Below are positions 2,448 to 32,296 of a stretch of DNA of 32,296 nt, in pieces. How positions within the stretch are numbered: position 1 is the stretch's first letter; every line of letters starts with the position of its first letter. The notes below the pieces were generated by a model. The model had not been told where the DNA came from. It saw only the letters and a program-made list of their open reading frames with translations, and did not search any database. Both the position numbers and the translations under genes were made by a program. The stretch comes from Pseudomonadota bacterium (GTDB taxonomy: Bacteria; Pseudomonadota; Gammaproteobacteria; Steroidobacterales; JBCBZW01): contig JBCBZW010000007.1 in NCBI GenBank assembly GCA_039815145.1, positions 65,192 through 97,487 of the forward strand. The letters are read 5' to 3'.

Positions 2448-2871
2448 GACGTTTCACCTTGGTGCCGCGATGGGTGACCGGTGGCGTTTGGCGGAGGTTG
2501 CGGCGGACATCGGACGCACGGTATCTCACGGGTTCGTTCTACTCTCGGTGTATCCAGGGGTTGCCTATCAGGTGCTCGATTGCACGATGTCGCGATTGTG
2601 CTCGACCCGGCGACGTTCGCGCCGTTGCCTCGCGCGGGCGACATCTCGCCGGGCTGATTGTATCTGATCGCCCCGCTGCAGGTGGGCACGAGCCCCATTC
2701 CGGCGAACCCTCAGAGCGGCACCCCGATGAGCCAGCCGTGCAACCAATGGGCGGGCCTTCGAATCTCAGTACGAGGCGACGCCGCGTTCGGCCCTGGGTG
2801 GCGTGTGCGGGCCGTCCAATGCAGTATCCGGGGATCGCACGACCGTGCGAATAGCAGGCAGGGAGTCAGGG
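2448..2871. other. Divergent intergenic region, no gene seen
   Basis: This 424-nt gap lies between the divergent ETF-QO and 2872-3903 genes and should hold promoters for both. I found no convincing -35/-10 pair. Short open frames on both strands here have neither recognisable protein sequence nor good ribosome sites. A TCGCCGGG-type inverted repeat (2606-2613 with 2646-2653, 32 nt apart) is too loose to call. Confidence 0.5.
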
Positions 2872-3903
2872 ATGTTTCGATTCGGCCGCTTTGGCATCGT
2901 GCTCGCGAGCCTGGCACTGGTGGGTCTCGTCGGGTTGTCGCAATGGCAGCGAGCGTCGCGCGAACCGGTGGTCGAATCCGTGCAGGGCGGCCGCTCGCTT
3001 CCAGCCCTGCCGGAGCTCAGGGCCTTTCGTCGCGACGGCGAGTTGAGCGCCAACCCGCTCGAGGTGATGCAAGCGCTGGAAGACGCTCCCGAGGCTGATC
3101 GCATCGGCACTATCCGCCTCGACCTCGAGTACGGCGACTTCACGATTCTGCCGGGTGAGCCCGGCGAGGGCGTGCGCATCACGGGCACCTACGAACCCGA
3201 CGCCTTCCGCCTCGAAGAGCGCTTCGAGGACGCCGGTGGCGCGTGGGAGTACAGCGTCACCTTCCGCGCCAAGGGCGGCACGATGGGCCTGCTCGTGAGC
3301 GGCGCGGGCAACCAGCCTCAGAACGAACTGACCATCACGCTGCCCCCGGACTTGCTCTTCGATCTCGAAGGCGAGTGGGGGATCGGTTTGCTCGAGGCGG
3401 AGCTCGGTGGCCTTTGGCTGCGCAACGTCGAGCTCGAGACGCGCACGGGCTCGCACAGCTTGAGCTTCAGCGTCCCCACCCAGTGGCCGCTCCGACGCCT
3501 CGAGGTGGACAAGGGCGTCGGCGAGTTCGCCATCCGCCAGTTGGGCAATGCGTCAGCGCAGTCCACGCGCGTGAAGCAGTCCATCGGCAGTGCCCAGGTC
3601 GACCTCGGCGGCGCCTGGGTGATCGACGGTGAGGTGGCGATCAAGTCTTACATCGGGGAACTGGGCGTCGATGCGCCGGACCAGGCCCGCCTCGACGTGG
3701 CGGACACCAGCGTGTGGGTGGGCGAGAACCTCATCGACGAGGACGCGCAGGACGCCGTCGTGCCCGATAGCGCACCGACCGTGAGCCTTCGCGCCGAGCT
3801 GAGCGTAGGGGAGCTGCGCGTGCGGGGGCCGAGAGCTCCCGAGGCGCCGGACGAGGCGGAGGACGAGGAGATCACCGAAGAGGGCGATGCGGAGTTCCTC
3901 TGA
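2872..3903 (+). CDS. Membrane-anchored protein with repetitive beta (DUF4097/toast-rack-like) region, unknown function
   Basis: A 343-residue protein. Residues 8-23 are one hydrophobic segment after a short basic start (MFRFGRFG), consistent with an N-terminal membrane anchor or uncleaved signal. The rest should then lie in the periplasm. From about residue 80 to 320 it is rich in short alternating beta stretches with repeated patterns such as GELRV, GEFAIRQL and GSAQVDLGG, the look of DUF4097 or LiaF/toast-rack right-handed beta folds. The last 20 residues are strongly acidic. I chose ATG 2872 because GGGAG lies six bases upstream and the hydrophobic segment then falls at the N-terminus; the frame also opens at 2803. 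Its stop is 13 bases from that of the convergent yheS. Fold type is inferred from pattern only, and I do not know its function. Confidence 0.7.
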   Translation: MFRFGRFGIVLASLALVGLVGLSQWQRASREPVVESVQGGRSLPALPELRAFRRDGELSANPLEVMQALEDAPEADRIGTIRLDLEYGDFTILPGEPGEGVRITGTYEPDAFRLEERFEDAGGAWEYSVTFRAKGGTMGLLVSGAGNQPQNELTITLPPDLLFDLEGEWGIGLLEAELGGLWLRNVELETRTGSHSLSFSVPTQWPLRRLEVDKGVGEFAIRQLGNASAQSTRVKQSIGSAQVDLGGAWVIDGEVAIKSYIGELGVDAPDQARLDVADTSVWVGENLIDEDAQDAVVPDSAPTVSLRAELSVGELRVRGPRAPEAPDEAEDEEITEEGDAEFL

Positions 3904-19354: not shown

Positions 19355-20050
19355 ATGACGGAAAGTACAGATTCAACAGGAAGTTACGAGGTGTCCCGGG
19401 AGCCCGTGGGCGGTGCCGCGGCGGGCCCCACGCCCTGGGCTGCGACGGTGCCCGACCGGGAGGCCCAGCACGCCATCAAGCGCCGGGTGATCGCCGAACA
19501 CGCCGCTATCCTGTTTAACGAGAAGGGGTTTCACGCCACCTCCCTGAACGAGCTGGCGGAGCGTCTGAACGTCACTAAAGGGGCGCTCTACCACTACGTC
19601 TCCGGCAAGGACGACATCGCCGTGGAGATCCTGCGCATCATCACCGAGGAGTCGAAGGCGGTGATGGCGGCGGCGAGCTCGGCGGCCACGGGCCTCGAGC
19701 GCTTACGCCTGTTTTTCGTGCACTACGCGCGGATGATGGCGACCCCCGTGGGCGCCTGCGGCGTGCAGATCGGCTCCCTGCCGCACAGCGACGACATCCG
19801 CGGCCAGATGACGGCCTTTCTGAAGGACTTGGACGCGCGCCTGCGCGCCATCTTGAAGGCGGGTATCGAGGACGGTTCGATCGCCGCCGAAGCAGATATC
19901 CGGATGACGGACTTTGCCGTCTTCGGCGCCCTGCACTGGTTGAGTCGTTGGTACCGGGAGGATGGCCCGGCCTCGCCGGAGGAGTTGGGCGAGGCGTTGT
20001 TCGACACCTTCGTACGCGGCCTTGCACCGCGTGCCCCGGCGTCCGCGTGA
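19355..20050 (+). CDS. TetR-family transcriptional regulator of the leucine operon
   Basis: A 231-residue TetR-family protein. After an unusual 38-residue polar leader, the DNA-binding domain starts (IKRRVIAEHAAILFNEKGF). Its helix-turn-helix is at about 63-82 (SLNELAERLNVTKGALYHYV), followed by the usual S-G-K-D-D-I. The C-terminal ligand domain includes VHYARMMATPVGACGVQIGSL. ATG 19355 has GGAG seven bases upstream; a start further in would leave no good ribosome site. It is divergent from liuA across 187 bp holding a palindrome, so it most likely represses liuA onward and itself, with an acyl-CoA intermediate as likely inducer. Leucine genes in many gammaproteobacteria use the MerR-type LiuR; a TetR-type regulator is the other known arrangement (LiuQ). 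I cannot confirm orthology. Confidence 0.88.
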   Translation: MTESTDSTGSYEVSREPVGGAAAGPTPWAATVPDREAQHAIKRRVIAEHAAILFNEKGFHATSLNELAERLNVTKGALYHYVSGKDDIAVEILRIITEESKAVMAAASSAATGLERLRLFFVHYARMMATPVGACGVQIGSLPHSDDIRGQMTAFLKDLDARLRAILKAGIEDGSIAAEADIRMTDFAVFGALHWLSRWYREDGPASPEELGEALFDTFVRGLAPRAPASA

Positions 20051-20069
20051 CGCCGGGTTTGGCGTGTAG

Positions 20070-20090
20070 GCCCCTAGCCCTGCGAGGGGC
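20070..20090. terminator. Hairpin at the tetR/leucine dehydrogenase convergence
   Basis: GCCCCT (20070-20075) pairs with AGGGGC (20085-20090) around a 9-nt loop at the junction of the two convergent stop codons. It is short and lacks a T-run, so it is only a possible bidirectional terminator. Confidence 0.25.
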
Positions 20091-21192
20091 GCCAGGGCTT
20101 GCGACCGCTCAAGCGATCCTTGAAGCGCAGCGTGTACGGCATGCGCGTGCTGGAGACGGCACGGATGCGCTCCTCGGCGAGGCGGTTGGCCGCCTGCCAG
20201 GAGGGGATGCCGTCGCGCTCGGCGATGCCGAAGATGTTGCCGACGCTCGTGTAAATGGTTTCGATAGCCTGGTAGGCGCGACCCCGGTCGTAGCCCTGAA
20301 GCTCCAGGGCGACGTTGATCAAACCGCCGGAGTTCACCGCGTAGTCCGGTGCGTAGAGGATGTTGCGCGCCTCGAGCTCGGTACCCCATTCCTCGCTCTC
20401 GAGCTGGTTGTTGGCGCTGCCGCAGACGATGTCGCAGCGCAGGCGCGGCACGGTGTCGGCGTTGATGATGCCGCCGAGGGCGCAGGGGGCGAACACTTGG
20501 GCGTCCACGTCGTAGATCTCGCTCATGGGCACGGGCTCGATGCCGTGCTCGTCGGCCAGCTGCTGGACGCGATCTTCGTTGAGGTCGCAGGCGAACACCT
20601 TGGCGCCGCGCTCGCGCAGCAGCACGGCGAGCTTGCCGCCGACGCTGCCCACGCCCTGTACGGCGTACGCGAGCTTGGACAAGTCCGTATGGCCGTAGCG
20701 CTTGTTGAGGCAGGCGCGGATGCCCTCGAGGGTGCCGGCCGCGGTGAAGGGGGAGGGATCGCCGCTACCGCCGTGCACCGGGTGCACGCCGACCACGCGA
20801 TCGGTCTCCTGGAAGATGTACTCCATGTCCTCGACCGTGGTGCCCACGTCTTCGGCCGTGATGTAGCGCCCACCGAGGGAGCCGATGAAGCGGCCGAGGG
20901 CGCGGAACAGGGCCTCGCTCTTGTGCGTCTCGGGATCGCCGATCAGCACCGCCTTGCCGCCGCCGAGATTCAGTCCAGCCACGGCCGCCTTGTAGGTCAT
21001 GCCGCGGGAGAGGCGCAGCACGTCCTTCACCGCATCAGCCTCGCTGGAGTAGGGCCACATGCGCAGGCCGCCGAGGGCGGGGCCGAGGGTGGTGTTGTGG
21101 ATGGCAACGATGGCGCGCAGACCCGATTCCTTGTGGTGGAAGAAGACCACCTCTTCGTGACCTTGCTCCGCGAGGATGTCGAACAGTTGCAT
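20074..21192 (-). CDS. ldh: Leucine (branched-chain amino acid) dehydrogenase
   Basis: A 372-residue Glu/Leu/Phe/Val dehydrogenase. Lys68 (GMTYKAAVAGL) and Lys80 (NLGGGKAVLIGDP) match the substrate-binding and catalytic lysines of leucine dehydrogenase, Lys80 even in number. GPALGGLRMWPY precedes them. The NAD domain has the motif VQGVGSVGGKLA and an acidic residue after the next strand (CDLNEDRV), which fits NAD. It oxidatively deaminates leucine, valine or isoleucine to the 2-oxoacid, feeding the operon next door. I chose ATG 21192 because GGAGG lies just upstream; the frame runs 25 codons further without a ribosome site. At 372 it is a little longer than usual (about 345-366). Valine dehydrogenase is an alternative name for the same family. 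Confidence 0.9.
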   Translation of the reverse strand: MQLFDILAEQGHEEVVFFHHKESGLRAIVAIHNTTLGPALGGLRMWPYSSEADAVKDVLRLSRGMTYKAAVAGLNLGGGKAVLIGDPETHKSEALFRALGRFIGSLGGRYITAEDVGTTVEDMEYIFQETDRVVGVHPVHGGSGDPSPFTAAGTLEGIRACLNKRYGHTDLSKLAYAVQGVGSVGGKLAVLLRERGAKVFACDLNEDRVQQLADEHGIEPVPMSEIYDVDAQVFAPCALGGIINADTVPRLRCDIVCGSANNQLESEEWGTELEARNILYAPDYAVNSGGLINVALELQGYDRGRAYQAIETIYTSVGNIFGIAERDGIPSWQAANRLAEERIRAVSSTRMPYTLRFKDRLSGRKPWRPSQG

Positions 21193-21492
21193 GGGACCTC
21201 CGTGGCGCTGGGCAGCGAGTCTCCGGGCTTTGAGGCCGGGGCGCCCTGGCGCGTTCTGAACAGGCACGACTGTGCCGAGTGGGGCGGCATTCTAGCGCAA
21301 GAACGCGCGATGGGAAGTCGTCTTCGATCATCGACGAAAGCGAGCGATGAAAGCACTCCTGTTATCAGTCTGCTTGCGCAGTGCAAAAAATTTCATGTGA
21401 AACCAATTGCCCCGGTACACAAGATCCGCAGCGCCGCGTAAGGGTACGCTGTCGCCTGCTAACTCAAGTTCAACCGAAAGAGCTCAAAACCG
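21193..21492. promoter_or_regulatory. Divergent control region between leucine dehydrogenase and icmF
   Basis: A 300-nt divergent gap. Bases 21385-21407 form a marked AT-rich patch in this GC-rich genome and contain TTTCA-TG-TGAAA (21391-21402), a 5-bp-arm inverted repeat. This is a plausible activator or repressor site, but no protein can be assigned. I found no convincing -35/-10 for icmF. I also looked for a cobalamin riboswitch B12 box ahead of this B12 enzyme and saw none. Confidence 0.4.
21289..21316 (-). promoter_or_regulatory. Candidate promoter of leucine dehydrogenase
   Basis: On the minus strand, TTCCCA (21311-21316, 4/6) and TAGAAT (21289-21294, 5/6) are 16 bp apart. The leader would be about 90 nt. 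The -10 match is good, the -35 fair. Confidence 0.4.
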
Positions 21493-24400
21493 ATGAATGC
21501 ACCGCTATCTGCCGTCGATAACCGCCAGTCGGCCGTCGATCGTCCGCCCGTGCGCTTCGTCACCGCAGCGTCGCTCTTCGACGGCCACGACGCCGCAATT
21601 AACATCATGCGCCGCCTGCTCCTGGCCAAGGGGGCGGAGGTCGTTCACCTCGGCCACAACCGTAGTGTCGAGGAGGTCGTGCGCGCGGCAGTGCAAGAGG
21701 ATGCCGCCGGTATCGCGTGCTCGTCCTACCAGGGTGGTCACGTCGAGTACTTCAAGTACATGGTCGACCGCCTGGCCCACTACGGCGCGCAACACATCCG
21801 CGTGTTCGCCGGCGGCGGTGGCACGATCAGCCCGGAGGAAATTCGCGACCTCGAAGCCTACGGCGTGACTCGTGTCTACAGCCCCAACGACGGCCTGCGC
21901 CTGGGCCTCGAGGGCATGATCGACGATGTGATCGAGCGGGCCGGCGAAGTGAACCGGCCAGGGCTCGCCGGCGAACAGAATCGCTCGCTGCGCGCGGAGG
22001 ATCACACGGCGATTGCCCGCGCTATCAGCGCCTTGGAGGAGGGGCAGACCGATCTGTCCTCGCTGGTGTCGCGTCCTGGCGAGCACGCGCGGCCGCCGGT
22101 GATCGGCATCACCGGTACGGGTGGTGCGGGCAAGAGCAGCCTGCTCGATGAGTTGCTCCAGCGCATCCTCGCCACCTTCCCCGAGTACCGGGTGGGGGTG
22201 CTCGCCGTGGATCCCACGCGTCGACGCACGGGAGGCGCCCTGCTCGGGGATCGGATCCGCATGAACTCGCTGGCGAGCGATCGCATCTTCATGCGCTCCC
22301 TCGCCACCCGACGCCAGCACCTGGCCACGGCCGAAGTGCTGGGCGATTGCATCAACCTGCTCACTCACACGGGTTTCGATCTCGTCGTCGTCGAGACCGC
22401 CGGTATCGGCCAGAGCGATACGCAGATCGTCGACCTGGTGGATCTCTCGCTCTACGTGATGACCGTCGATTTCGGCGCACCCAGCCAGCTCGAGAAGATC
22501 GACATGCTGGACTTCGCCGATCTCATCGTTCTCAACAAATTCGAAAGGCGCGGTTCGGAAGATGCCCTGCGCGAGATTCGCAAGCAGTGGCGGCGCAACC
22601 GCGTGCGCTTCGACGTGCCCGACGAGGAGGTTCCGGTATACCCGGCGATCGCCAGCCGCTTCAACGATGCCGGGGTGAACCGCTTGTTCGCCGCCCTGTG
22701 CGGGGCCCTGGGGGAGAGCAGCGAGGCACGCGGCCTGCGTGGCGGGGCGGCCGCCTGGTCTGCCGACGGCAAGCAGAACGCGCCCGGGGCGGTGAGCACG
22801 GAGGTGCCCGCGGGCAGCAACGAACCGTTGGTGCCGGCCGCGCGTGAACGCTACCTGGCGGAGATCGTGGCCAGTGGCCGCGATGTGCGTGCCACGATTG
22901 ACGCCGCAGCGGACGCGGCGAGTCGCGCGTACGCCTGCTTCGGCGCTCTGCAGGCGTTGCTGCCGGACGGCGCGCCTCTACCAGCCTTCGAGACCCTCGG
23001 TGAGGCGCAGCTGGCGGCGCTCGACATACCCGCTGCGGTACGCGACGGCGTCGACGCCCTCGTCGCTCGCTACAACGAAGCGCTGGAGCGTATCGGCGCC
23101 GAGGGCCTGGGCCTGCTTCGCGAGTGGCCGGCACGGGCCGACGCCGCTCGCAGCGAACGCTACGCCTACCAGGTGCGCGGCCGCACCATCGAAGGCGACA
23201 ACTACACCCAGAGCCTCTCCGGCCTGTCGCTGCCGAAGATCGCCGTGCCCGATCGACGCGACTGGGGCGACCTGCTGCGGTTCCTCATGGAGGAGAACCT
23301 GCCCGGTGCCTACCCCTACACGGCGGGCGTCTACCCCTACCGTCGCGAAGCGGAGGACCCAACGCGGATGTTCGCCGGTGAGGGCACGCCGGAGCGCACC
23401 AACCGACGCTTCCACTACCTGGCCGCCGGCCAGTCGACCACGCGCCTGTCCACCGCCTTCGATTCGGTCACCCTCTACGGCGAGGACCCGGCCACGCGTC
23501 CGGACATCTACGGCAAGATCGGCAACGCCGGCGTCTCCATCGCGACGCTGGACGACATGAAGAAGCTCTACTCGGGTTTCGACCTGTGCGCGCCCACCAC
23601 GTCCGTGTCGATGACCATCAACGGCCCGGCGCCCGTGCTGATGGCCATGTTCCTGAACACGGCCATCGACCAGCAGGTCGAGCGCTACCTGCGCGAGCAG
23701 GGGCAACTGGATCAGGTGCGCAAGGACCTGGCGGTGAGCGGAGCCGTCTACCAAGGTGACCTGCCTGGCACGCACGACGGGCTGGGTCTGGGGTTGCTCG
23801 GCACCCATGGCGCCGCCGTGGTGGAGCCGGAGGTGTACGCGAAGATCCGGGACGACGCGCTTCGCGCCGTGCGCGGTACCGTGCAGGCGGACATCCTGAA
23901 GGAGGACCAGGCGCAGAACACCTGCATCTTCTCCACCGAGTTCGCCATGCGCCTGATGGGCGACGTGCAGGAGTACTTCAGCCACAACGGCGTGCGCAAT
24001 TTCTACAGCGTGTCCGTGAGCGGCTATCACATCGCTGAGGCAGGGGCGAACCCGATCTCCCAGCTCGCCTTCACCCTGGCCAACGGCTTCACCATCGTCG
24101 AGTACTACCTGAGCCGCGGCCTGCCCATCGACAGCTTCGCGCCGAACCTGAGCTTCTTCTTCTCCAACGGCATGGATCCGGAGTACGCGGTGATCGGGCG
24201 CGTAGCGCGACGGATCTGGGCGCGGGCCATGCGCGAGCGCTACGGCGCCTCGCCGCGCAGCCAGATGCTGAAGTACCACATCCAGACCTCGGGCCGGAGC
24301 CTCCACGCGCAGGAGATCCAGTTCAACGACATCCGCACCACCCTGCAGGCCATGTACGCCCTGTTCGACAGCTGCAACAGCCTGCACACCAATGCCTTCG

Positions 24401-24981
24401 ACGAGGCCCTGACCACGCCGACCGAGGACTCCGTGCGCCGGGCCATGGCGATCCAGCTGATCATCAACCGCGAGCTCGGCATCAACCAGAACCAGAACCC
24501 CTGGCAGGGTTCCTTCGTAATCGAGGAGCTGACGCGCGCGGTAGAAGATGCGGTGTACGCGGAGTTCGAACGCCTCGCCGAGCGCGGCGGCGTGCTGGGG
24601 GCGATGGAGACCATGTACCAGCGCGGTCGTATCCAGGATGAAAGCATGCTGTACGAAGCGCGAAAGCACGACGGCAGCCTGCCCATCATCGGCGTCAACA
24701 CCTTCCTCAAGGAGGGCGGCGAGGCGAGCGAGGAGGAACAGACCGAGAACGAGCTGATCCGATCCTCTGAGGAGGAGAAGCGTCAGCAGGTGGCGGCGGT
24801 CGAGGCCTTCGTCGCCAACGGCCGGGACCCCGGCGCCGAGGCGCTGGCCGCGTTGCAGGGGGCGGCCCGCACGGGCGACAACCTCTTCGATCACCTGATG
24901 GTGGCCGTGCGCCACTGCTCGTTGGGTACGATCAGTGACGCGCTCTATCGCGTGGGGGGGCGTTACCGGCGTAACTTGTAG
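21493..24981 (+). CDS. icmF: Fused isobutyryl-CoA mutase IcmF (B12-binding, G-protein chaperone and mutase domains)
   Basis: 1162 residues in three parts. The N-terminal B12 domain has the axial ligand His32 in F-D-G-H-D-A-A, then the base-off binding loops GGHVEYF and FAGGGGTI. The MeaI-like GTPase domain has Walker A GTGGAGKS (208-215), VVVETAGIGQSD and the LNKFERRG base motif. The C-terminal mutase barrel begins near residue 590. Two substrate-contact positions, Phe627 (TRMFAGEG) and Gln808 (KEDQAQNTCIF), are of the isobutyryl-CoA type; methylmalonyl-CoA mutase has Tyr and Arg there. His846 (SGYHIAEAGA) is conserved. It interconverts isobutyryl- and n-butyryl-CoA, and IcmF is also known to act weakly on isovaleryl/pivalyl-CoA. 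It is somewhat longer than the roughly 1,090-residue Cupriavidus enzyme, mostly in the linker around 420-590. Confidence 0.95.
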   Translation: MNAPLSAVDNRQSAVDRPPVRFVTAASLFDGHDAAINIMRRLLLAKGAEVVHLGHNRSVEEVVRAAVQEDAAGIACSSYQGGHVEYFKYMVDRLAHYGAQHIRVFAGGGGTISPEEIRDLEAYGVTRVYSPNDGLRLGLEGMIDDVIERAGEVNRPGLAGEQNRSLRAEDHTAIARAISALEEGQTDLSSLVSRPGEHARPPVIGITGTGGAGKSSLLDELLQRILATFPEYRVGVLAVDPTRRRTGGALLGDRIRMNSLASDRIFMRSLATRRQHLATAEVLGDCINLLTHTGFDLVVVETAGIGQSDTQIVDLVDLSLYVMTVDFGAPSQLEKIDMLDFADLIVLNKFERRGSEDALREIRKQWRRNRVRFDVPDEEVPVYPAIASRFNDAGVNRLFAALCGALGESSEARGLRGGAAAWSADGKQNAPGAVSTEVPAGSNEPLVPAARERYLAEIVASGRDVRATIDAAADAASRAYACFGALQALLPDGAPLPAFETLGEAQLAALDIPAAVRDGVDALVARYNEALERIGAEGLGLLREWPARADAARSERYAYQVRGRTIEGDNYTQSLSGLSLPKIAVPDRRDWGDLLRFLMEENLPGAYPYTAGVYPYRREAEDPTRMFAGEGTPERTNRRFHYLAAGQSTTRLSTAFDSVTLYGEDPATRPDIYGKIGNAGVSIATLDDMKKLYSGFDLCAPTTSVSMTINGPAPVLMAMFLNTAIDQQVERYLREQGQLDQVRKDLAVSGAVYQGDLPGTHDGLGLGLLGTHGAAVVEPEVYAKIRDDALRAVRGTVQADILKEDQAQNTCIFSTEFAMRLMGDVQEYFSHNGVRNFYSVSVSGYHIAEAGANPISQLAFTLANGFTIVEYYLSRGLPIDSFAPNLSFFFSNGMDPEYAVIGRVARRIWARAMRERYGASPRSQMLKYHIQTSGRSLHAQEIQFNDIRTTLQAMYALFDSCNSLHTNAFDEALTTPTEDSVRRAMAIQLIINRELGINQNQNPWQGSFVIEELTRAVEDAVYAEFERLAERGGVLGAMETMYQRGRIQDESMLYEARKHDGSLPIIGVNTFLKEGGEASEEEQTENELIRSSEEEKRQQVAAVEAFVANGRDPGAEALAALQGAARTGDNLFDHLMVAVRHCSLGTISDALYRVGGRYRRNL

Positions 24982-28365: not shown

Positions 28366-29409
28366 ATGTCGAACCTCCAGTACATCTACGGCAAGCGTGT
28401 GCCCAACGCGGACGAAGTGCGCACGCCGCTCACGCACCACGACGTGCTGGAGCTGGTGGCGCCGTTCTCCGCCGCCGACCGCCAGGTGGACCTGGAGGCG
28501 AGCGATCGGGCTCGGCGGCGCCTCGACTTCAAGCCCCTCGAGCATCCGGCCACCGAATCGATGCCCGCGGTCACCGAGCACCTCACCCTCGAGGCGCCGG
28601 AGCGCTCAGGGGACAGCTTCGTGCTCGAGCGCCAGCTGAGGGCCACCACCCCGGAGGGTGAACTCGTGGCGACCCTCAAGGCCACGGGCAAGCCGGTCGC
28701 CCGCCTGCTCGAGTGGGTGACGTCTGTCCCCCTGGCGCGTCACTGGCGCGAGATCGATGGCACCTGGCTCGCGCGCAGCTATCGAATTCGCTCGTCGAGC
28801 GCGCAGAGCGGCACACCGGCGCCGCAGATCGACGCGGCCCACGCGCGCTTCGCGCAGGGAGCGTTGATGACCGTGGAGCACACGCTGGCGGGATCGCCGT
28901 TGGAGGTGCGCTTGCAGGCCCTCGACGACGGCGCGCATCTGCTGCTGCCGGACGATTTTCTCTCCGTCGCTGGCCGGGCCTGGCGGCCTCTGCGCAAGAC
29001 GTCCCATCGCGGCTGGCGAGGCTCCTTGCGCGTGCCGCCGAAGGAACCCGACCGGACGCGCGAGGCCGAAGCCGCCGTCGACGGCATCGTGAGTCACGTC
29101 GCGCAGACGCTCGCCGCGGGGCCTGGCGAGTATCACACGCGCCACAAGAGCGCCCGCTGGCGCGCGGCGCTGCAGCGGATCTCGCCCGCCCTGGCGTTGG
29201 TCGCCTTCATGATCATCACGCCGAGTCTGATGTTCCTGCCCACGGCGAAGAACCCCGGCTTCCTCGTGATCATCTTCCAGCTGCCCACGGTGGCGCTGAT
29301 CGCCTTCTTCTCCCTGCGCGAGCTGCCCGTGCTGGAGATACCGCCGCGCCCGACACCCCTGAAGCAAACCGTGTGGTTGCAGCCGGCGGCGACGCCCCCT
29401 AACAAATAG
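28366..29409 (+). CDS. Unknown protein with two C-terminal membrane segments
   Basis: I do not recognise this 347-residue protein. Residues 1-265 are soluble and charged. They include the regular, probably beta-rich stretches TEHLTLEAPERSGDSFVLERQL and GALMTVEHTLAGSPLEVRLQAL. Two hydrophobic helices follow at about 275-291 and 298-315, with a proline-rich tail (LEIPPRPTPLK). A hairpin anchor with both ends in the cytoplasm is the simplest reading. ATG 28366 has GGGGAG about 14 bases upstream; a GTG at 28351 is an alternative start. It is 26 bases ahead of the MoxR ATPase gene and probably in its operon, so it may anchor or serve that ATPase at the membrane. A weak promoter (TTGGCG 28288-28293, 17 bp, TCCAAT 28311-28316) fits. 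Confidence 0.72.
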   Translation: MSNLQYIYGKRVPNADEVRTPLTHHDVLELVAPFSAADRQVDLEASDRARRRLDFKPLEHPATESMPAVTEHLTLEAPERSGDSFVLERQLRATTPEGELVATLKATGKPVARLLEWVTSVPLARHWREIDGTWLARSYRIRSSSAQSGTPAPQIDAAHARFAQGALMTVEHTLAGSPLEVRLQALDDGAHLLLPDDFLSVAGRAWRPLRKTSHRGWRGSLRVPPKEPDRTREAEAAVDGIVSHVAQTLAAGPGEYHTRHKSARWRAALQRISPALALVAFMIITPSLMFLPTAKNPGFLVIIFQLPTVALIAFFSLRELPVLEIPPRPTPLKQTVWLQPAATPPNK

Positions 29410-29435
29410 TTCCATTAGCACCCAGGAGATCGTTG

Positions 29436-30539
29436 GTGCAGGCCAATCCCATGAACATCCCGGCGGTCTCGATCACCGCTGCCAAGTCGGCCCTGCTCGG
29501 TCAGTTCGCCGATCCGGTGCTGCGCCAGCGCGCGACGATGCTGTGGGGCACGCGCGGTGTCGGCAAGTCCTCGATCGTGCGCCAGGTGGCCGAGCACCAT
29601 CAGGTACCGTTGGTGGACCTGCGCCTGACCAGCATCGAGCCGGTGGACATCCGCGGTGCCATCTACGCGGACGACGAGCAGCAGCGCACGGTGTGGTTTC
29701 CGCCGGAGTTCCTGCCCGACGGCTCGAACCCCGAGGGCATCCTGTTTCTCGATGAACTCACCGCCGCCGATCAGCGCCTGCAGATCAGCGCCTACTCCCT
29801 GATCCTCGATCGTCGCGTCGGCAACTACCGCCTACCGGACGGCTGGCTGGTGGTGGCCGCGGGCAACGCCGCCTTCCACGGCGCCGTGAGCCACGACATG
29901 GGCACGGCACTGGCCGATCGCATGTTCCACTTCAACGTGCAGAGCACGGTGGATGCGTTCCTCGCTTACGCCCTGGCCAACGGCCTCGCGCCACAGGTCA
30001 TGGCCTATCTGAAGGTACGACCCGATCGCCTCGACGACACCGCCTCGCAGGTGGCGAACGACCACCTCGTCGGCGCCAGTCCACGGGGCTGGGAGGACGT
30101 CTCGCGGGTGCTGCAGTCGAACGCCGATCCTGAGCAGCAACGGTTGTTCGTGCAGGGACGCATCGGCGCGGCCAACGCCGCCGAGTTCTTCGGCGTGCTG
30201 CGCGAGATCGAAGCGGGCACCAACGTGCTCGAACTGCTCGCCGCCAAGGCGGGGCCCGAGACCGCCGAGCTGCTGCCGCGCACCCTCGATGCCCTGTACG
30301 GCATGATCTACGGCCTCCTGGCTGCCTGCGATGAATCGGCGCGCGTGACCCGGGCCCTGGAGATCATCGAGCAGCTGCCGGACACCAAAGCCCAGCAGCC
30401 CCTGCCCATCCGCGAGGCGCAGACGCTCACCATGGAGTTGCTGTTCGAACGGGCCCTCAACCAGGGCTTGGAGGGGGCGATCCTGGAGAGCCCCGTCTAC
30501 CAGCGCTACGTGGCCCAGCGCGACGACGCCAGCGCATGA
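29436..30539 (+). CDS. MoxR-type AAA ATPase
   Basis: A 367-residue AAA+ ATPase. Walker A is GTRGVGKS (38-45). Walker B is ILFLDEL with Asp106 and Glu107. The segment after it, TAADQRLQISAYSLILDRRVGNYRLPDGW, and VVAAGN give the sensor 1 region of MoxR-like proteins. The C-terminal helical lid contains ASPRGWEDVSRVL. MoxR ATPases act with VWA-domain partners in assembling or inserting cofactors into protein complexes. The VWA gene follows with a 4-base overlap (ATGA), the classic pairing. I chose GTG 29436 because AGGAGA lies six bases upstream; TTG one codon earlier and ATG 29451 are less well placed. Confidence 0.9.
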   Translation: MQANPMNIPAVSITAAKSALLGQFADPVLRQRATMLWGTRGVGKSSIVRQVAEHHQVPLVDLRLTSIEPVDIRGAIYADDEQQRTVWFPPEFLPDGSNPEGILFLDELTAADQRLQISAYSLILDRRVGNYRLPDGWLVVAAGNAAFHGAVSHDMGTALADRMFHFNVQSTVDAFLAYALANGLAPQVMAYLKVRPDRLDDTASQVANDHLVGASPRGWEDVSRVLQSNADPEQQRLFVQGRIGAANAAEFFGVLREIEAGTNVLELLAAKAGPETAELLPRTLDALYGMIYGLLAACDESARVTRALEIIEQLPDTKAQQPLPIREAQTLTMELLFERALNQGLEGAILESPVYQRYVAQRDDASA

Positions 30540-31957
30540 CCACCACCTCGCCCGCCGGTGCCGTGCACGAGCATCGCGGCACGCGCGCGATCCAGCGCAT
30601 GGTGGAATACGCCCCCGCCACCGGCAGCCTCGCCCTGTGGATCGCCCATCGCGACGATGACGACCTCGGCAAGCGCGAGCTCGAGGCGGCTACGGACGGT
30701 GAGGAGATCCGCTACGGCCCCGCCTTCGAGGGGCTCACCCTGGCGCGCCAGACGGGGCTCGTCGCGCACCAGGTGTTGCACGTGGCCCTGCGCCATCCGC
30801 AGCGGAGCGAGGCCCTGCGTCAGGTGGTCGGCGACGTCGATCCCGAGCTCTTCAACGCCTGCGCCGATGCGATCGTCAACAGTGCCCTTGGGCACCTCAG
30901 TTGGTTGGAGCTGTCACCGCGCGCCGTGCGCCTGGAGGCCTTGCTGTCCCGCGTGTTGCGCATCGATGAGCCGGTGGAGAAGTCGCTCCTCGAATGGGAC
31001 GTCGAGCGCTTGTATCGTGCCATCGACGATCGCCAGGGGCGCTCCGCCAGCGGTGGGGGCGGTGGCGGTCGCCAGGAGGCGAGCGCGGGGGAGGGCGAGG
31101 GCCAGCAGGGGAGCGGTGGCCAAGGCGGCGATCCGCAGCAGCAGGAGGAGGACTCGGCGGAGCGTGCGGCCTCCAGCGCGCAACGCGCATCCGATCTCGA
31201 TCAGATGACCGATGGGCCCCGCGCCAGCGCCACCCGCGACCTCGCCGCCGGCGAGCCCCGTGATCTCCTGCCCGCCGCGGCCGGCGATGCCCCTGAGGCG
31301 GAGGCCGAACGGGCGCGCGATTGGCGCGAGCGCATCTCACGCGGCCACGCCCGCGACGGCGCCCACTCCTTGCTAAGAGAACTACTCGCCGACGTGCCGA
31401 TGCCGCGGACGCCGTGGCAGGCGCTGCTGCGCACGTGGCTGGCGCGAGGCCTCGCGCCGCTTACCTCGATCAGCTGGTCGCGCCCGGCCCGGTCCTGGCT
31501 CGCCAACCAGGGGCGCGACAGCCGCGGGCGACGCATGCCCTTCGAGCCGGGCACCTCGTCGCTGCGGGCTGTCACGCGGTTGGTGGTCATGGTCGATGTC
31601 TCAGGGTCCATCGATGAGCCGTTGCTACGGCGCTTTTGCGGCGAGATCACGGCCATCGGCCGGCGTTGCGAAGCGCACGTGAGCTTGATCGTCGGCGATG
31701 ATCAGGTGCGTCACGTGAAGCACTTCCGTCCCGGCATGCCGTTCAGTGTGCCGACCTTGGATATCGATGGCGGCGGCGGCACGGACTTCACGCCGCTGCT
31801 CGAAGCGGCCGACGAGTTGCGACCGGACATCGGTGTGGTGCTCACGGACCTTGAGGGTCCCGCCCGCCTGCGTCCCCGTTGGCCAGTGATCTGGGCCACT
31901 CCTGCGAGCGCCGCTGAGGTGGAGACGCCCTTCGGCCGTCGTCTGCTCCTCGACTAG
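30536..31957 (+). CDS. DUF2201/VWA-like protein, partner of the MoxR ATPase
   Basis: A 473-residue protein. The N-terminal part is a DUF2201-type metallopeptidase-like domain with H78-Q-V-L-H82 (VAHQVLHVALRH) and the helix FNACADAIVNSALG. The usual glutamate of HExxH is Gln, so it may bind metal without peptidase activity. Residues about 175-270 are a low-complexity Gly/Gln/Glu/Ala linker. The C-terminal VWA domain has a MIDAS site with D354-V-S356-G-S358 and Thr416-Asp417 in GGGGTDF. Such proteins pair with MoxR ATPases as adaptors that bind a client through the metal ion site. It overlaps the ATPase gene by four bases. The client is unknown; nothing nearby looks like a metalloenzyme that needs it. 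Confidence 0.87.
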   Translation: MTTTSPAGAVHEHRGTRAIQRMVEYAPATGSLALWIAHRDDDDLGKRELEAATDGEEIRYGPAFEGLTLARQTGLVAHQVLHVALRHPQRSEALRQVVGDVDPELFNACADAIVNSALGHLSWLELSPRAVRLEALLSRVLRIDEPVEKSLLEWDVERLYRAIDDRQGRSASGGGGGGRQEASAGEGEGQQGSGGQGGDPQQQEEDSAERAASSAQRASDLDQMTDGPRASATRDLAAGEPRDLLPAAAGDAPEAEAERARDWRERISRGHARDGAHSLLRELLADVPMPRTPWQALLRTWLARGLAPLTSISWSRPARSWLANQGRDSRGRRMPFEPGTSSLRAVTRLVVMVDVSGSIDEPLLRRFCGEITAIGRRCEAHVSLIVGDDQVRHVKHFRPGMPFSVPTLDIDGGGGTDFTPLLEAADELRPDIGVVLTDLEGPARLRPRWPVIWATPASAAEVETPFGRRLLLD

Positions 31958-32026: not shown

Positions 32027-32296
32027 ATGACGAGACGGGTTCGACGCAGCGCGGCGTTGCTGCTGGTGGGGTTGGCGTTGGCGTCCCCTTTGACGAAGGC
32101 GGCGCAGTGGACCGTCGTGCATGCCGGCCAACTGCTACCGGTGCCCGGGGCAGAGGTGCTCGACACCTCCAGCGTCGTCATACGCGACGGACGCGTGGAG
32201 CGGGTGGCGCCGGGCTATCTCACCGCTGCGGACCTACCCATCGCCGAGGGTGACGCCGTCACCCTGCATGATTTGTCCTCCCACTTCGTCATGCCC
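32027..32296 (+). CDS. Exported amidohydrolase-family protein (3' partial)
   Basis: The first 90 residues are present and the gene runs off the window. A signal peptide is clear: basic MTRRVRRS, hydrophobic AALLLVGLALAS, and likely cleavage after T-K-A-A. Then WTVVHAGQLLPVPGAEVLDTSSVVIRDGRVERVAPG is the small beta-sandwich domain that opens amidohydrolases of the imidazolonepropionase/dipeptidase-like group. The end (LHDLSSHFVMP) is where the metal-binding H-x-H strand should come next. AGGGG lies eight bases before the ATG, 69 bases after the VWA gene, so it may be in the same operon. The catalytic part is not visible, so no substrate is offered. Confidence 0.75.
   Translation, partial: MTRRVRRSAALLLVGLALASPLTKAAQWTVVHAGQLLPVPGAEVLDTSSVVIRDGRVERVAPGYLTAADLPIAEGDAVTLHDLSSHFVMP

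Follow-up and report, generated by a model that had tools for sequence, protein, structure and literature searches.

The stretch of DNA analysed here, 32,296 nt from a bacterium of the Pseudomonadota ("the window", within which the trio coordinates are numbered), contains three consecutive genes, in the following called the trio. They encode P1, as we label the 347-residue product of the first gene, a MoxR-like AAA+ ATPase, and a protein with DUF2201 and von Willebrand factor A (VWA) domains. The data suggest that the trio is a phototrophy-associated, conserved form of the MoxR-VWA machines, equipped with a new membrane subunit. That the three genes are one functional unit is in our judgement almost certain; that this unit is tied to phototrophy is very probable. 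Directly supported are the three-gene unit, the intact ATPase and MIDAS (metal ion-dependent adhesion site) motifs, the predicted helices of P1 and a linkage to photosynthesis genes that is phyletic and, locally, physical. The association with purple-type photosynthesis is the strongest clue, and an earlier note on this DNA missed it.

Conservation of the trio

Named genomes were scanned with an alignment of the ATPase alone as seed, which yielded 121 relatives, and the best 80 loci were kept. A P1 homologue lies at most 5 kb from the ATPase gene in 76 of the 80, a VWA gene in 77, and all three genes occur in 75. The co-occurrence of P1 with MoxR-VWA genes, which the earlier note had proposed to check, is thereby established, and its idea of a membrane-tethered three-part unit is backed at the level of the genes and by a confident model of the P1 helix pair. 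As to the incomplete loci, L054 and L081 lie at contig ends, L090 has ATPase and VWA genes without P1, and L096 and L098 are devoid of both partners within 5 kb. The latter two, a Chromatiaceae metagenome-assembled genome (MAG) and Lamprocystis purpurea, respectively, still have an ATPase of the subfamily.

P1 is encoded upstream of the ATPase on the same strand in 72 loci. It is found downstream only in L056, L062 and L120, and downstream on the opposite strand in L069; two copies are present in L129, L133 and L072. Except for that of L069, the downstream copies cluster in the P1 tree, in a single subclade that also holds two upstream ones. Judged by the record titles of the best 80 loci, the trio ranges over Alpha-, Beta- and Gammaproteobacteria and reaches one Myxococcota genome and one Gemmatimonadales MAG. 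Across these classes and phyla the ATPases are 72-78% identical to that of the window. Such conservation from class to class makes the trio more than a chance neighbourhood.

Pairs of MoxR and DUF2201 genes as such are common in the class of the window. DUF2201_N was detected in 117 of 369 genomes of this class, P1 in only two of these 117, the window's own genome (G000) and G163, a genome from another family of the same class. The common loci show the same gene pair, with an ATPase match in 26 of 28, but these ATPases are only 31-44% identical to that of the window, and the DUF2201 proteins have kept an HEALH motif in 28 of 28 loci examined. No P1-like open reading frame (ORF) was seen in the 28 loci, but the flanks covered only about 1.5 kb, and the genome-wide search is the better test.

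Searches seeded with P1 revealed two copies in the own genome, two in the same-genus sister genome G001 and one in G163. In each of the three genomes one copy is placed directly ahead of the MoxR-VWA genes. The second copy is solitary, beside a serA-like gene and without MoxR-VWA genes (L015:3947-4993 on contig C201 in the own genome, L014:8121-9194 in the sister). P1 homologues unlinked to MoxR-VWA genes, which would have spoken against the unit proposed by the earlier note, are thus confined to this one paralogue in the own and the sister genome; overall the linkage holds. In the tree the solitary paralogue groups with the P1 copy of Myxococcota, a join of long branches.

Association with phototrophy

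Purple phototrophs were abundant among the ATPase relatives, which prompted a test with PF00124 (PufL/M) over its cut-off as the marker of phototrophy. Fifty genomes bearing the ATPase subfamily were tested, 49 from the 80 loci, picked to include unclear names, plus G163. The marker exceeded its cut-off in 46 of the 50, among them G435, G444 and G451, which yielded fragments only. In the class sample of 369 genomes it was positive in just seven. P1 occurs in two of these seven and in none of the other 362 (Fisher p 0.0003; 0.016 without the own genome). P1 matches in G310, G323 and G260 had been discarded before counting as chance matches, being weak, short and interrupted by internal stops. 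In the own genome PF00124 matches twice, at neighbouring positions and in the PufL/PufM arrangement.

A second sample comprised 142 genomes from the class of a Rhodopseudomonas, 12 PF00124-positive and 130 negative. A strong ATPase of the subfamily was found only in Rhodopseudomonas itself, with 661 bits versus at best 111 elsewhere, the 130 PF00124-negative genomes included. Two of the three trio-bearing phototrophs in these samples are the genomes around which the sampling was done. Both the Myxococcota and the Gemmatimonadales MAG with the trio carry PF00124; the Gemmatimonadales copy resides on an 8.7-kb contig and may have been mis-binned. The trio nearly implies phototrophy; it is not needed for phototrophy as such.

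Physical linkage was seen in two lineages. In L107, L112, L115 and L128, which form one Burkholderiales clade in the P1 tree, bchI-bchD lie upstream of P1 in divergent orientation. They adjoin P1 directly in L112 and L128, where the locus extends far enough to show bchO as the next gene, while one DUF3422 gene intervenes in L107 and L115. In six Ectothiorhodospira loci and in G163, crtI is the second gene beyond the VWA gene. In Rhodopseudomonas infernalis the trio is apparently some 25 kb away from pufLM on one contig, to judge from two contigs of equal size (155,422) and matching transporter genes at the junction.

A number of observations weigh against a photosynthetic role of the trio. Within the genus of the window each genome has one solitary P1 copy. 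Three of the 50 subfamily genomes are without a PF00124 match and one more remains below the cut-off, although all four are MAGs, in which missing contigs may explain the gaps. Five of the seven phototrophs of the class sample do not have P1, and 11 of the 12 alphaproteobacterial ones are devoid of the subfamily ATPase; taken together, 16 of 19 phototrophs manage without the trio, so that the converse of the association fails. Of the 80 loci only 10, and G163 in addition, show bch or crtI near the trio among the genes probed, and the own genome has its trio and its pufLM on separate contigs. Distances between trio proteins correlate only moderately with those between photosynthesis proteins (Mantel r 0.53, p 0.002, 11 genomes), and the two trees are not congruent, as exemplified by the position of the Myxococcota genome. 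Since the trees disagree despite the moderate correlation, transfer of trio and photosynthesis genes as one block is not demonstrated. PMC10576062 describes how Myxococcota received the photosynthesis cluster by transfer; its main text makes no mention of MoxR. Nor do MoxR or von Willebrand appear in the main text of PMC5705917, a paper on the longevity of Rhodopseudomonas.

The search for other differences between phototrophs with and without the trio was not rewarding. No cluster of ORFs (at least four genomes) in up to 40 kb around pufLM was exclusive to either the 11 subfamily genomes or the 10 other phototrophs compared. In the phototroph G377 a weak DUF2201 trace with a stop was noticed that resembled the remains of a trio, but tblastn with the three G163 proteins gave nothing significant.

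These facts could also be accommodated by a general membrane or respiratory chaperone, similar to RavA-ViaA, that is needed for the purple-bacterial lifestyle with its large membrane area and shifting redox state and does not act on the photosystem. Such a role would agree with the many phototrophs devoid of the trio and with the few loci that have bch or crtI beside it (just 10 of 80), and there are precedents for MoxR-VWA pairs with respiratory complexes and membranes as their targets. It fits less well with the zero count of P1 in 362 non-phototrophs of the class, with the PF00124 of both the Myxococcota and the Gemmatimonadales MAG, or with the proximity to bchID or crtI in two lineages. 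We consider it somewhat unlikely.

Another candidate process is oxygen-independent bacteriochlorophyll synthesis, i.e., the trio would support BchE or a related metal- or cobalamin-dependent step instead of the assembly of a complex. BchE is over its cut-off in 31 of 46 subfamily genomes versus 4 of 15 phototrophs without the subfamily (Fisher p 0.008, the genomes not being independent), and AAA+/VWA pairs do serve as chelatase subunits in BchI/BchD. BchE is, however, under the cut-off or absent in 15 of the 46, including the four Burkholderiales with the trio beside bchI (G447, G449, G452, G460); some of these gaps may be due to incomplete MAGs. BchE is enriched with the trio and not required, and a role in this step appears quite improbable. 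The magnesium chelatase BchI/BchD is itself an AAA+/VWA pair of phototrophs and a gene neighbour of the trio in four loci; it belongs, however, to separate families, and L112 has the two sets next to each other.

Activation of Rubisco would be the third option, since CbbQ/CbbO is a MoxR/VWA pair and thus follows the same logic. PF00016 is over its cut-off in 30 of 45 subfamily genomes, a count that includes Rubisco-like proteins, and many of these bacteria may fix CO2. An activase role is nevertheless disfavoured because PF00016 finds no match in the own genome and none over the cut-off in 15 of the 45. Moreover, G164 and G377 are Rubisco-bearing phototrophs without P1, and the trio has an extra membrane subunit that CbbQ/CbbO does not have. 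For the own genome Rubisco was rejected as client, unless it is encoded in missing sequence; in general the idea is hardly credible. The 6-Mb host genome shows PufL/M-type PF00124 matches and bchE over the cut-off (regions C1:169478-171139 and C37:34958-36457) and no Rubisco match; the host, by inference a gammaproteobacterium, is probably an uncharacterised photoheterotroph.

Gene structure

The three ORFs that the earlier note had put into one operon at 28366-31957 were confirmed. All are on the + strand in the order P1, MoxR-like, VWA. The features are:

28366..29409, + strand: P1, 347-aa membrane protein with an N-terminal soluble alpha/beta part and a C-terminal two-helix hairpin, no Pfam family (ORF, profile searches, hydropathy, model)
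29164..29235, + strand: predicted membrane helix 1 of P1, residues 267-290 (hydropathy; model helix 261-290)
29260..29316, + strand: predicted membrane helix 2 of P1, residues 299-317 (hydropathy; model helix 297-315)
29424..29429, + strand: AGGAGA, probable ribosome-binding site for the MoxR-like gene, located 6 nt ahead of GTG 29436 (sequence)
29436..30539, + strand: MoxR-like AAA+ ATPase, AAA_5 type; alternative start TTG 29433 (ORF, profile searches, sister-genome ORF)
29547..29570, + strand: Walker A motif GTRGVGKS of the ATPase (sequence, alignment)
30536..31957, + strand: protein with DUF2201_N (putative metallopeptidase) and VWA (DUF2201) (ORF, profile searches, fold match)
30767..30796, + strand: HQVLHVALRH, zincin-like motif with the catalytic Glu replaced by Gln; three His invariant in 34 aligned rows (alignment)
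31595..31609, + strand: MIDAS motif DVSGS of the VWA domain; Thr416 and Asp438 likewise invariant in 34 rows (alignment)

The gap of 26 nt between the P1 and MoxR-like genes (29410-29435) and the overlap of 4 nt between the MoxR-like and VWA genes fit a single operon. The earliest possible start of the MoxR-like gene is TTG 29433, the next GTG 29436. The latter is likelier to be the true start, because AGGAGA sits 6 nt ahead of it and the ORF of the sister genome begins at the same codon.

P1, the membrane subunit

The earlier note had called the 347-residue protein unrecognised, with a soluble N-terminal part and two C-terminal membrane helices, and so it remains. P1 itself had no match up to E 1 in Pfam, NCBIfam or PADLOC. 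When 49 members of its family were compared with Pfam, the best E was 0.007 and no family was matched in more than two members. Hydropathy reveals two hydrophobic segments close to the C-terminus, residues 267-290 and 299-317. The structural model is of high confidence (pLDDT 91, pTM 0.86) and agrees: it predicts a soluble alpha/beta part, followed by helices 229-250 and 253-259 and then the membrane hairpin. Where helix 1 starts, the stretch ARWRAALQR (263-271) contributes positive residues, which fits a cytoplasmic soluble part.

The profile and structure searches that the earlier note had recommended did not reveal a known family or a confident fold. Foldseek found no match to the model in the PDB at E 0.001 or better. 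A VIA search reached a best Z of 6.8 for residues 22-132 (about 22-133) only, with CapZ, DR_1245 and ExsC, which is too weak to name a fold. The P1 profile against PDB sequences matched only translin, at chance level. Histidines 24, 25 and 244 are invariant in 49 of 49 rows, H257 in 48 of 49.

Between the sister genomes P1 is 75% identical, versus 99% for the adjacent ATPase (window 28366-30539); P1 is one subunit that changes unusually fast beside a near-constant ATPase. Such fast evolution, together with the combination of ATPase, VWA and a third protein, would also fit the vWA-MoxR ternary systems that act in defence or conflict. The best PADLOC match has, however, an E of only 0.013, bpMoxR scores 12.3 against a cut-off of 27, P1 is a single homologous family and not a set of swapped effectors, and the association runs with phototrophs. 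We regard a conflict system as most improbable.

The ATPase and its DUF2201/VWA partner

The assignment of the second gene product to the MoxR ATPases needs a qualification. It passes the AAA_5 cut-off (24.7 bits vs 22) but stays under that of AAA_3 (PF07726), the MoxR model of Pfam (13.3 bits vs 27), and is therefore termed MoxR-like, of AAA_5 type. Its Walker motifs are intact, GTRGVGKS as Walker A and ILFLDE as Walker B. PDB sequences gave no match.

For the third protein the earlier assignment to DUF2201/VWA holds without reservation. It is strongly DUF2201_N (221 bits, E 2e-65) and DUF2201 (122 bits, E 3e-35), both over their cut-offs, and the MIDAS residues of its VWA domain are intact. 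PDB sequences yielded chance-level matches only. The model, of medium confidence (pLDDT 77), resembles many VWA folds in its VWA part; NorD of the NorQD system ranks third with an E of 0.004.

DUF2201_N is annotated as a putative metallopeptidase, and the trio might accordingly be a regulated membrane protease, in which the ATPase would deliver a target for DUF2201_N to cleave. Members of the common family indeed keep HEALH (28 of 28 loci). The window's protein, however, has HQVLH in place of an HExxH with its catalytic Glu, and among 77 subfamily members the Glu is present in only 45, with Gln in 28 and Ala in 4. Proteolysis as the shared function is thus very improbable. Metal binding by the motif may persist without it, as the three motif histidines are invariant in the 34-row alignment.

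Proposed function

The closest analogue is the NorQ/NorD pair. According to PMC9976466 and PMC13036017, this pair of a MoxR-type AAA+ protein and a VWA protein supplies the membrane-bound nitric oxide reductase with its non-haem iron; the AAA+ protein is a hexamer, and the VWA partner puts a finger into its pore and contacts the membrane client. In the later model, the VWA partner twists the client open for iron insertion. The trio resembles NorQD in that the gene of an AAA+ ring adjoins that of a VWA protein with intact MIDAS, in its likely membrane client and in the fold match to NorD; it differs by its N-terminal DUF2201_N part and by a third, membrane-anchored partner, P1.

We infer the formation of a complex, its topology, the direction of its action, the step and the client. 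The best reading, which we hold with middling conviction, is a remodelling machine of the NorQD kind, tethered to the membrane and working for the photosynthetic apparatus. P1 would be anchored by its two-helix hairpin in the cytoplasmic, or intracytoplasmic photosynthetic, membrane with the folded part facing the cytoplasm, and would hold the MoxR-like AAA+ ring and the DUF2201-VWA adaptor beside a membrane client. ATP hydrolysis in the ring might then move the VWA protein, by analogy with NorQ/NorD, while the MIDAS site grips the client, which could thus be opened for assembly, for insertion of a cofactor or metal, or for repair. The client is most likely to be sought in the purple-bacterial photosynthetic apparatus, be it the reaction centre and light-harvesting complexes or the pigment steps feeding them. 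That the trio acts on photosystem biogenesis or repair is plausible, though we would hesitate to bet on it. Because the trio is absent in most of the phototrophs sampled, the machine may be conditional or meant for some variable component, for example the antenna complexes or the electron donors.

A non-haem iron lies close to the cytoplasmic face of the reaction centre, which is, for this reason, an attractive candidate client. In its most specific form the proposal would be a so far unrecognised, membrane-tethered AAA+ maturation machine dedicated to purple-bacterial (type II) photosynthesis. It would play the part at the reaction centre, e.g., at the non-haem iron/quinone site that faces the cytoplasm, which NorQD plays at the iron site of nitric oxide reductase. 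H24, H25, H244 and H257 of P1 would handle a metal or pigment, and only certain phototrophs or conditions would call for the machine. This version, drawn by analogy, is unlikely.

If the proposed machine for the photosynthetic apparatus is real, a part has been missing from purple-bacterial photosynthesis, one of the best studied bioenergetic systems, and it can be tracked over three proteobacterial classes and two other phyla. The poorly understood MoxR-VWA machines would likewise gain a new membrane-anchor subunit and a new class of clients. The literature matches listed contain no account of this trio, or of a DUF2201-VWA pair tied to phototrophy, subscription papers and supplementary tables being outside the scope. 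The trio occurs in Rubrivivax gelatinosus (DSM 1709 and IM 151) and in three records titled Rhodopseudomonas palustris, species for which genetics is established, and one deletion strain could serve as a test.

Neighbouring genes

The earlier note had considered the exported amidohydrolase starting at 32027 as a possible client of the trio. This candidate finds no support: there is no counterpart in the 80 loci or in the locus of G163, only in the same-genus genome. The NUDIX and ferredoxin neighbours, compared with the 80 loci, G001 and G163, also have matches in the same-genus genome only. In the sister genome the amidohydrolase downstream of the trio appears broken across two reading frames (L013:5906-7029). 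In seven Rhodopseudomonas loci the trio is followed by PF03055, a dioxygenase of the lignostilbene/carotenoid-cleaving type (e.g., L061:7530-8933).

The ORFs at window 2803-3903 (366 aa) and 19948-21441 (497 aa) have no Pfam match at E 1e-5, and either may be a chance ORF. The stretch 795-24981 of the window holds genes of acyl-CoA catabolism, namely ETF-QO, two CoA-transferase subunits, biotin carboxylase, carboxyl transferase and thiolase; also within it, at 21493-24981, a fused mutase-like protein was recognised by eye.

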